Of a stretch of 30,557 nucleotides of DNA, positions 23,643 to 27,009 are shown piece after piece. The notes beneath the pieces are model-generated. The model saw only the letters and a list, made by a program, of their open reading frames with translations, was not told the DNA's origin and did not search any database. Source of the DNA: a virus; the IMG/VR virus record IMGVR_UViG_3300024429_000025, positions 1 to 30,557 of that record; one strand, written 5' to 3'. The first letter of the stretch is position 1. Each line of letters begins with the position of its first letter. A program made the translations under genes and the position numbers.

Positions 23643-23809
23643 AGAAAACCTGTAGGTCTTGTAACTATTATCGCGAGGATATACTAACACCGCCACGCAG
23701 ACTTAAAATGGGACATTGTTTATCTGAAGAAAGCCCCATGATACTAACGTATGGGTGTGATAAAGCGTGCAAATACTGGCGACCGAAGAAAGGCAAGGTG
23801 AAGAGGTGA
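23639..23809 (+). CDS. 56-residue cysteine-rich mini-protein
   Basis: A small ORF starting within the stop of the preceding gene (ATGA) and overlapping the start of the next gene. Its five cysteines (CRSC near residue 5, GHC, YGCDKAC) followed by KYW look like a zinc-binding knot, a pattern seen in many uncharacterised phage mini-proteins. Composition is more AT-rich than its neighbours, suggesting later acquisition. Confidence 0.6.
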   Translation: MKKTCRSCNYYREDILTPPRRLKMGHCLSEESPMILTYGCDKACKYWRPKKGKVKR

Positions 23810-25002
23810 AACCAAGATTCCCATCGCCACATATCTCGTTTTCTTCGATGGCAGACTTCGGATATTGTCCCCGGTATTGGTATCTACTTCGGAAGCATAA
23901 ACCGCCGCTCAAGGGCAGGGAGACGCCGGAGATAATCGCTGGCCGTCATGGACATATCGCGTTGCATCTGATCAACAAGTTCATTAAGACTGACCGGGAC
24001 GCGTTCGATGCGGTCGAAGTCAAGAGGATATTTGACAAAGCCATGCGACCCCTGAATCTCAATCTCCCGTTCTACGAGAATCTATGGCAGGGGATACGGA
24101 ATCATGCCGAAGAAACCCATGCGTCACAGCCGCCGATCTTTGAGGTTGAATATCCTCTTATGGTCAAACTTGAGACAAAAAACGATGGTGTGATCTGGAT
24201 TGTCGGGACACTTGACCGGCTCGATATAAGGGAAGGGGTCGCGACGTTGTGGGATTACAAGATCACGTATTTGATCCCGACGCGTGAAGAATTGGACGCG
24301 AACGAACAGTTTACGCTCTATTCATATTTGATATGGAAGGAGTTCCCACAAGTCAAGCGGATTATTCTCAAGTGGCACGCGGTGCTTGCCGGCAAGTCCC
24401 GGAGAGTCGAAAAGGATCTGACGAAACTGACAGCGATCGAAGAGCATCTCGCGGACCGGTGGCACGCAATCCGGACCGAGAAGACATGGCCGACAAATGC
24501 GCCATGTGCGCGATGTGATACGTGTCCGCAAGTCTGTACCGATTACAAGGCTTATCTCCGGCAAGTTTACTACCAGAAGGATATCAAGACGTTCGAGGAT
24601 AAGGCCGTCGTGTTCCTTGCCATTCGGGATCAGATGGGCGCATTGAAGAAGGAACACAAGCGGCTCGATACAGATATCAAAAAGGAGATCGCAGTTAGGA
24701 TGGGGGAGCCGGTTATCGCGGCCGGCCGGGAATGGAAGTTATCGACGCAACACAGAGAGGGCGGCTATACGGAGCCGACGGATTTCACGAAACTTGTCCC
24801 GGTGAAGTTGCTCGGGACGGAAAAGGGCGCTCGCCAGCGAGCGAGCGAGAAAGGCAAGGTGGGAAGTGAAGGGAATAAGGATCGATGCACAGATCGAAAA
24901 GGTGGAAAAGGAAAGGTCAACAGCGCTCGCGAAACTGGAAAAGGACATCAACAAAGAGGCCGGCGGAGTGGTATCACGGGCGGAGAAGTTCCCACTTGGT
25001 AA
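23806..25002 (+). CDS. RecB/Cas4-like PD-(D/E)XK nuclease with cysteine cluster
   Basis: A 398-residue nuclease. Cas4/AddB-type signs: SSMADFGYCPRYWYL with C21; a GRHGHIALH histidine; VGTLDRLDI with D137; LWDYKI (D150, K152); a QxxxY helix (EQFTLYSY); and a CARCDTCPQVC cluster (234-244) that with C21 could hold an iron-sulfur cluster. It likely trims DNA ends 5' to 3' for the adjacent annealing protein. The GTG at 23806 overlaps the previous stop and follows AAGGTGAAGAG. After about residue 340 the sequence becomes a low-complexity K/G/R tail that overlaps the next gene by 137 bases, so the real end may differ. Confidence 0.78.
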   Translation: MKPRFPSPHISFSSMADFGYCPRYWYLLRKHKPPLKGRETPEIIAGRHGHIALHLINKFIKTDRDAFDAVEVKRIFDKAMRPLNLNLPFYENLWQGIRNHAEETHASQPPIFEVEYPLMVKLETKNDGVIWIVGTLDRLDIREGVATLWDYKITYLIPTREELDANEQFTLYSYLIWKEFPQVKRIILKWHAVLAGKSRRVEKDLTKLTAIEEHLADRWHAIRTEKTWPTNAPCARCDTCPQVCTDYKAYLRQVYYQKDIKTFEDKAVVFLAIRDQMGALKKEHKRLDTDIKKEIAVRMGEPVIAAGREWKLSTQHREGGYTEPTDFTKLVPVKLLGTEKGARQRASEKGKVGSEGNKDRCTDRKGGKGKVNSARETGKGHQQRGRRSGITGGEVPTW

Positions 25003-25501
25003 CGAAGAGCAATACAAAAAGGCTTCGGTCGTTGTCAAGTGGCTCATGGATATAATCCGGGCGGTCAAAGGCGAGGAAAAATATCATTGCGAGCCATTCA
25101 AGGAAGGGCTTGCACGTTTAACGGATCGATTCAGGGAGATGCGGGCGCCGGTAGAAAAGGCCGTTGACATTATGAAGGAAAAAATGACGACATGGTGGGC
25201 GGCCGAAGAAGAGAAGAAGGAAAAGGAAGCCGCAAAGATCGAAGCCGATAACCGGAAGAGACTTGAGAAGGCGAAGGAGCCGGCTCGCGTCAAGATCAAG
25301 GAGACGCCTGACGCGCCGGTGAAGTCAGTCGGAGCGACGACAGCCGTGAAACATTGGACATATAAGGTGGTAGATGAAGCGAAAGTCCCGAGAGCATATC
25401 TTCAGTTGAACAAAGGCACAATCATGGGAGCAATACGACAAGGGAAAAGAGAAATCGCTGGCCTTGAGATATATCAAGAAATAGGGATCACGACAAGATA
25501 A
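24866..25501 (+). CDS. Coiled-coil recombination-associated protein
   Basis: A 211-residue protein. Residues 1-130 are coiled-coil-like and charged (QIEKVEKERSTALAKLEKD...). The C-terminal region, TTAVKHWTYKVVDEAKVPR then YLQLNKGTIMGAIRQGKREIAGLEIYQE, is a pattern I associate with phage proteins found beside annealing proteins and exonucleases. Gam/Gp157-like functions have been proposed for similar proteins, but that remains inference here. Start GTG 24866 follows AAGGCAAGGTGG. The start region overlaps the nuclease tail in another frame. Confidence 0.68.
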   Translation: MKGIRIDAQIEKVEKERSTALAKLEKDINKEAGGVVSRAEKFPLGNEEQYKKASVVVKWLMDIIRAVKGEEKYHCEPFKEGLARLTDRFREMRAPVEKAVDIMKEKMTTWWAAEEEKKEKEAAKIEADNRKRLEKAKEPARVKIKETPDAPVKSVGATTAVKHWTYKVVDEAKVPRAYLQLNKGTIMGAIRQGKREIAGLEIYQEIGITTR

Positions 25502-26125: not shown

Positions 26126-26569
26126 ATGGCAACGAGCCGGCAGATCTCGACTGACATAGGAACAGACGAACAGTTGAACATGGTATCAGATCAGGCCGCG
26201 CTCTTATTCACATGGTGTATTGCGAGAGCCGATCCTCACGGATACTTGCCCGGGAAGCCGGGAGAATTAAGGTTGAAGGTTGTCCCGGGCCGCAAATGGA
26301 CGGACAAAGAGGTCGCTGGCTATTTGAAGGAACTTGAAGCAACGAAGACAGATACAGATCCGGCATTGGTAGAATGGAAGTATCCTCATTATGTGCGGCT
26401 GTTGGGATGGGAAGGGACGCAGAAGTTTTTGTATAGGAGACCCGAATCGATCTACCTCAAGAAGTATACGGAAAGGGTCGGGAAGATTGAGAAAGGTCAG
26501 GAAAGGTTGGCAAAGGTAGAGAAAGCCACTATACGTATAAGAGAAGAGAAGAGAAGAGAAGAGAAGTGA
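26126..26569 (+). CDS. Replication-initiator-like N-terminal protein (DnaD/replisome-organizer type)
   Basis: A 147-residue protein. The segment SDQAALLFTWCIARADPHGYLPG matches the N-terminal winged-helix part of phage replisome organizer/DnaD-like initiators. The next 60 residues carry a KVVPGRKWTDKEVAGYLKELE helix and a wing. The end is a basic/acidic linker encoded by five GAGAA repeats. Initiators of this type usually continue into a C-terminal domain, but here a stop follows the repeat and the next gene begins at once. Loss of one repeat unit would fuse both frames. It probably recruits the helicase or loader to the origin. Confidence 0.68.
   Translation: MATSRQISTDIGTDEQLNMVSDQAALLFTWCIARADPHGYLPGKPGELRLKVVPGRKWTDKEVAGYLKELEATKTDTDPALVEWKYPHYVRLLGWEGTQKFLYRRPESIYLKKYTERVGKIEKGQERLAKVEKATIRIREEKRREEK
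26541..26565 (+). repeat. GAGAA pentanucleotide repeat (five units) at a gene junction
   Basis: Five tandem GAGAA units followed by GTGAA. They encode the C-terminal residues EEKRREEK of the upstream gene and also provide the purine-rich ribosome-binding site of the GTG at 26566. Because the unit is five bases, a change in copy number changes the reading frame. Confidence 0.85.
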
Positions 26570-27009
26570 ATATAGGGGGAAAAACGCGCCGATTCGGGGT
26601 TATAGGTAGAAAGGATAGGATATCACTCCATAAAGGCGCTAAAGCGCCGCAGAAGGTAGATATTGAGGCAAATAAGAGGCGTATGGCTGACCTCATAGAG
26701 ATGATAACTCGTGAGAAGGTCCTCGGGGATAGTGTCAAGAGAATAGAGCAACATGGCCGGTCCGGGTGTATCCTGTCATTACGCCGGGGAATGGACGCGC
26801 TATGCTATGCGAAGGGGGATATGTGTACCGGCCCGGAAGATTGCGCAAAGGACTTTCAGGCGATAGCAGGGGAGATCCGGAAGAAGTTCCCGGATATGGA
26901 GATGCAGAACTTCTATTCGAACTTGAGGACGTTCTGCGCCATGTGGGTAAAATATAACAAGGAGATGTTATGGAATCGTTACAAGGCGAAGATCGGGGAG
27001 ACTCGGTGA
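26566..27009 (+). CDS. Possible C-terminal part/partner of the replication protein
   Basis: A 147-residue protein starting at GTG overlapping the previous stop. The first 30 residues are basic and linker-like (GKTRRFGVIGRKDRIS). The rest is helical with EANKRRMADLIEMITREKVLGDS and a conserved-looking centre around two cysteines (YAKGDMCTGPEDCAKDF). It lies in the frame that the upstream gene would enter if one GAGAA unit were lost. It may be a separate protein, or the second domain of a split initiator. No family match is claimed. Confidence 0.6.
   Translation: MNIGGKTRRFGVIGRKDRISLHKGAKAPQKVDIEANKRRMADLIEMITREKVLGDSVKRIEQHGRSGCILSLRRGMDALCYAKGDMCTGPEDCAKDFQAIAGEIRKKFPDMEMQNFYSNLRTFCAMWVKYNKEMLWNRYKAKIGETR

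Follow-up and report, generated by a model that had tools for sequence, protein, structure and literature searches.

What is a run of five GAGAA units doing at the very place where one replication-type gene of a virus ends and the next begins? The locus lies in a window of 30,557 nucleotides, which is the whole stretch of DNA analyzed here (IMG/VR virus record IMGVR_UViG_3300024429_000025, positions 1 to 30,557). The features needed to follow the argument are these:

26126 to 26569, plus strand: ORF1, initiator N-terminal domain, 147 aa; winged helix at about residues 1-105, then a long repeat-encoded helix, ending in REEKRREEK and the stop.
26471 to 26530, plus strand: iteron-like array, six copies of the 10-bp unit GAAAGGTnnG (GAAAGGGTCG, GGAAGATTGA, GAAAGGTCAG, GAAAGGTTGG, CAAAGGTAGA, GAAAGCCACT).
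26530 to 26539, no strand assigned: palindrome TATACGTATA between iterons and tract, from the sequence.
26541 to 26565, plus strand: (GAGAA)5 tract, from the sequence and shuffles; read here as the probable purine-rich half of an origin within the gene.
26543 to 26570, plus strand: six GAA at exact 5-nt spacing, TGA stop included, from a count of the GAA chain.
26566 to 27009, plus strand: ORF2, 147 aa, GTG start at 26566, predicted helical protein, perhaps the C-terminal half of the initiator, perhaps a gene of its own.
26683 to 27009, plus strand: shorter alternative for ORF2 from ATG 26683, 108 aa, from the sequence.

The sequence-only reading had described five tandem units closing an initiator-like gene, and we confirmed this: five exact units occupy 26541-26565, preceded by CTATACGTATAA and followed by GTGAATATAGG, and the TGA stop of ORF1 is at 26567-26569. 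No 23-mer as close as the window tract arose in 100 dinucleotide shuffles. The GAA phase extends one unit beyond the five, as the stop itself lies inside a sixth pentamer (GAAGT, then GAA), giving a chain of six from 26543. The tract is purine-asymmetric, has 60% A+T against 50% for the window, and encodes REEKR in all three frames. Because five is not a multiple of three, slippage by one unit splits the protein. Modulo 3, ORF1 occupies frame 2 and ORF2 frame 1, so that a change of -5 or +10 nt yields a single frame; the earlier calculation that the genes would be fused by the loss of one unit or the gain of two was thus correct, and the ORF2 frame is open 5' of the tract back to a stop at 26488. 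The two ORFs overlap by 4 nt (GTGA). The further suggestion that the tract supplies the ribosome-binding site of ORF2 is only possible, since GAGAAGAGAAG would pair weakly with the anti-Shine-Dalgarno sequence. Ribosomal frameshifting in place of reinitiation was considered and rejected, as reading the sequence at the ORF1 stop revealed no classical slippery heptamer.

ORF1 does appear to be initiator-like, as had been proposed. Sequence searches gave weak but consistent matches to Moorella phage MCACPph1 (5e-6) and to DnaD-domain proteins of Paenibacillus phages (3e-4), along with PHROG 1408 (E 0.015). The AlphaFold model, built on a 20-sequence alignment, has a confident winged helix (pLDDT 88) and a long helix across the repeat-encoded part, continuous over residues 109-146 with the repeat included. 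Its top Foldseek neighbors were mostly winged-helix DNA-binding domains, with weak E-values. ORF1 therefore has the N-terminal winged helix, related to known phage initiators, of a phage DnaD/Rep-type protein. Its chain stops at the tract (about codon 139), and searches of Pfam, PHROGs and further collections found no DnaB_2, DnaT or similar C-terminal domain in ORF2. Slightly upstream of the initiator, at 23767-25002, is a PD-(D/E)XK exonuclease-type gene (Pfam 2.8e-14); an ORF at 24866-25501, in another frame, overlaps its end and matches an exonuclease PHROG (1.5e-6).

Beyond what had been described earlier, a 10-bp repeat array and a palindrome adjoin the tract on its upstream side, and the stop falls within the sixth pentamer. 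The self-identity of the array is 0.60 at lag 10 and 0.62 at lag 20, versus 0.09-0.49 at other lags, and it holds five copies of a 9-mer with two mismatches, a number reached in 0 of 200 shuffles. These iterons are imperfect and lie within K/E-rich code. In relatives, short repeats also stand directly upstream of the tract, usually as 8-mers every 10-11 bp and often ending 2-3 bp before it. Among the matches listed, 9-mers repeated at least three times in the 120 nt upstream accompany 49 of 98 tracts, versus 7, 7 and 2 in the controls, which were equal-length segments of the same loci. The same test on ORF1 relatives (set B, 31 sequences brought in by a profile search and not chosen for the tract) was positive for 14 of 21, versus 1, 0 and 5 in control segments.

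Is the tract itself found elsewhere? Scanning viral contigs for exact (GAGAA)5 gave at least 119 stretches. Among the matches listed for viral tracts of at least five units, 103 of the 107 with the ORF start in view carry the tract at codon 90-220, and in 93 of 98 complete tract-bearing ORFs the frame continues for at least 150 nt beyond it. The N-terminal parts of these listed ORFs fall into 13 clusters, one of which holds 83 of the 103 members. At the N-terminal end, examples matched Lin1244_N, DUF1376 (below the Pfam cut-off) and several replication-initiation PHROGs; at the C-terminal end they matched DnaT, DnaB_2 or Phg_2220_C. Among the matches listed, viral (GAGAA)5 thus appears to be nearly confined to the linker of phage replication initiators. 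Judged by sequence comparison, the tract is not peculiar to this phage and is common to many otherwise unrelated phages, with epsilon15, SPN1S, BUCT711, CP2 and phiPSA1 as named examples. It is not universal, being absent from the relatives in Rac (YdaU), TL-2011b, PAN70, Carin1, Vibrio 1.211 and Klebsiella ST11. Since the scan required at least five units, the surplus of viral tracts with n = 5 is to some degree a product of the search itself. In bacterial genomes (GAGAA)n lies inside such genes in only 10 of 91 cases, and a look-up for strain-level unit polymorphism in E. coli found the epsilon15-type gene in only two genomes. Unlike the viral tracts, the (GAGAA)n tracts of the bacterial loci (L124-L240) mostly lie in short ORFs or in none and reach 17 units. 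Initiators of the same family that lack GAGAA (L354:1228-2016, L353:1501-2325 and L366:901-1671) have poly-Glu purine runs (LPEEEEEE) at the same place in the linker.

A repeat at a fixed place in a coding sequence may be kept for the peptide or for the DNA. In the first case the tract would have no DNA function and would only encode a charged helical linker (REEKR), tolerated by the protein and lengthened by slippage; the continuous modeled helix through the repeat agrees with this, as does the fact that slippage does occur in relatives. The codons tell against it. When synonymous codons were permuted within each gene, the GAA chain, 7.8 in the 23 non-redundant relatives picked without regard to the tract, dropped to 2.6; for the 93 relatives chosen by it (among the matches listed) the drop was from 5.25 to 1.84. 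The observed chain of the window lies beyond the 1% level of this permutation. In the linkers of relatives not chosen for the tract, 149 GAA pairs have a spacing of 5, versus 0-6 at each of the spacings 3, 4 and 6-9. Arginine in the tract is encoded by AGA in 336 of 336 cases, a figure fixed by the search pattern, versus 10% AGA elsewhere in the same genes (among the matches listed). In GAAnn arrays of varied units the 5-nt spacing persists for as many as 13 units; slippage alone would not preserve it, and the fixed place after the iterons points the same way. We take these comparisons to show that the 5-nt register is a feature of the DNA and no by-product of the peptide, and we consider the linker-only explanation unlikely. 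Part of the periodicity could nevertheless come from slippage in a linker tolerant of charged repeats.

Other pentamers behave in the same manner. For (GAACA)4, a pentamer read from relatives, 57 of 92 tracts with a covering ORF of at least 60 aa are in the sense orientation at codon 90-230, and 54 of the ORFs are similar to members already known. (GACAA)4 had been intended as a control of the same composition, yet it too was enriched: 25 of 54 tracts had the sense orientation and this position, although similarity to the library counted only 9. A motif consisting of GAA alone was therefore ruled out, and the relevant property seems to be an A/G-rich pentamer rather than GAA alone. The pyrimidine-containing control (CATCA)4 gave 0 of 9, a small sample picked after the (GACAA)4 control had failed.

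We then asked how often the two halves are separate. The view that homologues are normally a single chain was borne out, and the fused relatives that had been called for make up most of those found. Besides the 93 of 98 ORFs above, 74 of 78 complete loci in set A are fused in one chain; this family of 80 loci was gathered by N-terminal similarity to tract-bearing seeds and is thus a biased sample. Set B proteins are mostly 218-443 aa. The other 4 of 78 loci in set A are split, and each has one GAGAA unit more or fewer than its relatives: L250 (+1), L255 (-1), L259 (+1) and L320 (+1). Their C-terminal frame is still open, over 119 or 179 codons. Tracts in set A are mostly of 4 or 5 units. The scan sample and set A overlap at two places (L063/L250 and L073/L320 are the same contigs).

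These loci bear directly on the proposed contingency switch, in which gain and loss of units would be selected and populations would alternate between a fused initiator and separate halves. As in simple-repeat contingency loci such as phase-variable methyltransferase genes, the repeat is coding and non-triplet, and single-unit indels change the frame, both by arithmetic and in the four split homologues, where the other frame remains open. One part of the proposal holds: by these comparisons, natural relatives do switch frame through single-unit changes, in about 5% of cases. A contingency switch would account for that proportion, but so, equally well, would slippage under selection for the fused form. 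What found no support is switching as the reason for the tract. The phage initiator tracts are short, narrow in length and about 95% in frame, whereas likely phase-variable methyltransferase tracts have 7-17 units, and the comparisons are across relatives 79-94% identical over the gene and not within one clone. With conservation at the DNA level beside iterons in 13 clusters, the sister pentamers and the predominance of in-frame tracts, an origin element would fit better, and we judge a switch improbable. Phage genes do contain long (GACAA)n/(GAACA)n tracts of 7-17 units at codon ~54-58 (L472, L475, L482-L484, L489, L517 and L522), and a second group of the same length range lies at codon ~234-287 of genes that by eye resemble cytosine DNA methyltransferases (L391, L405, L424 and L442). 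The tracts of both groups look like real phase-variable tracts.

In the window phage the halves are split, and the status of ORF2 is less clear. The coding signal shifts at the tract from the ORF1 frame to the ORF2 frame, which would fit the split of a once-fused gene. ORF2 had no homologue in viral contigs, phages, Pfam, PHROGs, NCBIfam or the PDB, and did not match either of the adjacent Moorella phage replication proteins. Its single-sequence model, made apart from that of ORF1, is poor (pLDDT 45), with predicted helices starting near residue 33. That ORF2 is the lost C-terminal half of the initiator is only plausible. ORF1 and ORF2 may instead be simply adjacent genes with the common GTGA overlap, ORF2 being unrelated to initiation or starting at ATG 26683. 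The lack of homologues and of likeness to the C-terminal parts of the Moorella phage relative speak for this. However, nearly all relatives are fused at that place, and the coding signal follows the ORF2 frame from the tract on; this holds also for the 39 codons that precede ATG 26683 and is mildly against a start there. We regard adjacent genes as a serious possibility, if short of even odds; it concerns only the split and is compatible with an origin at the tract. Alternatively, the gene may be fused in reality, and the split an error of sequencing or assembly. The virus record is an assembly from sequence data, and indels at repeats are a usual type of error; on the other hand, 25 nt fits well within short reads and PCR slippage of 5-mers is rare, so we consider an error quite improbable.

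Iterons and an asymmetric stretch in the middle of an initiator gene form the layout known from lambda, and for this reason we propose, with a probability of roughly 70%, that the initiator gene contains a replication origin, as do those of lambda and SPP1 (oriL), and that the tract is its purine-rich, strand-asymmetric half. The support, all at the level of sequence, consists of iterons followed by a purine pentamer array between the code for the N-terminal DNA-binding domain and the rest, recurrence in many initiator families, and apparent selection on the DNA register. The A+T content of only 60%, the absence of the tract from the relatives named above and the imperfect iterons of the window speak against this reading. 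In lambda and Stx phages the origin lies inside gene O and comprises iterons and then a strand-asymmetric A/G-rich stretch (PMC7466680), at about codons 117-158. The lambda annotation puts the iterons at codons 117-144 of O, the same place as the phage tracts; in the window and in relatives alike the tract lies between the two domains, with iterons (imperfect in the window) directly upstream. Lambda differs in having an AT-rich irregular tract, whereas here there is a pentanucleotide array with shorter iterons spaced 10-11 bp; lambda and TP901-1 both have other sequences at the place of the tract. SPP1 oriL, inside gene 38, has direct repeats and an unwinding element within the initiator gene (PMC6316719), a likeness at the level of description.

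A further parallel is the DnaD recognition element (DRE) of B. subtilis oriC, a paired TnnT on one strand (PMC10201434), which like the DnaA-trio is a short-period single-stranded code beside initiator boxes. TnnT occurs in (TTCTC)n, the pyrimidine strand of GAGAA, and paired 5'-TnnT-3' can be read directly in TTCTCTTCTC on the minus strand of 26541-26565. The bacterial elements have period 3 rather than 5, the arrays here are in phages and inside a gene, and GAAGG and GAACT units give no TnnT. The DRE may be the nearest biochemical parallel, and we offer it only as a lead.

If the tract is such an origin half, the N-terminal domain would bind the iterons and the strain would melt the adjacent array. 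The exposed strand would then be taken by a C-terminal domain that binds single-stranded DNA or recruits the loader (DnaT-, DnaD/DnaB_2- or Phg_2220_C-type in relatives), followed by helicase loading. As the charged linker REEKRREEK is encoded in every frame, the array could be DNA element and linker at once. In this phage the halves, now in different frames, would probably be read by stop-start coupling at GTGA.

More broadly, and tentatively, many unrelated tailed phages might share a single-stranded pentanucleotide origin code: a purine array stepped by 5 nt beside iterons and read by the initiator or loader whose linker it encodes. Such an array would be frame-neutral and so fit any reading frame, with one-unit slippage giving a split initiator. 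We found no description of such arrays in phage origins in the open-access literature; papers outside it may exist. If the proposal is true, looking for an iteron and pentamer array in the initiator gene could be enough to find the origin of many uncultured phages from their sequence, an element stepped by 5 nt would be a counterpart of the DnaA-trio and DRE codes at bacterial oriC, and the recurrence of the odd RREEKRREEK and NRTEQNRTEQ linkers in phage initiators would be explained.

Three ORF1 relatives (L324, L327 and L330; initiator gene at locus 3001, codons ~115-250) have about 130 extra residues before the pentamer array. The extra stretch has FEVKRQRLS-type motifs and may be a nuclease fold, and the iterons and array are shifted downstream with it.
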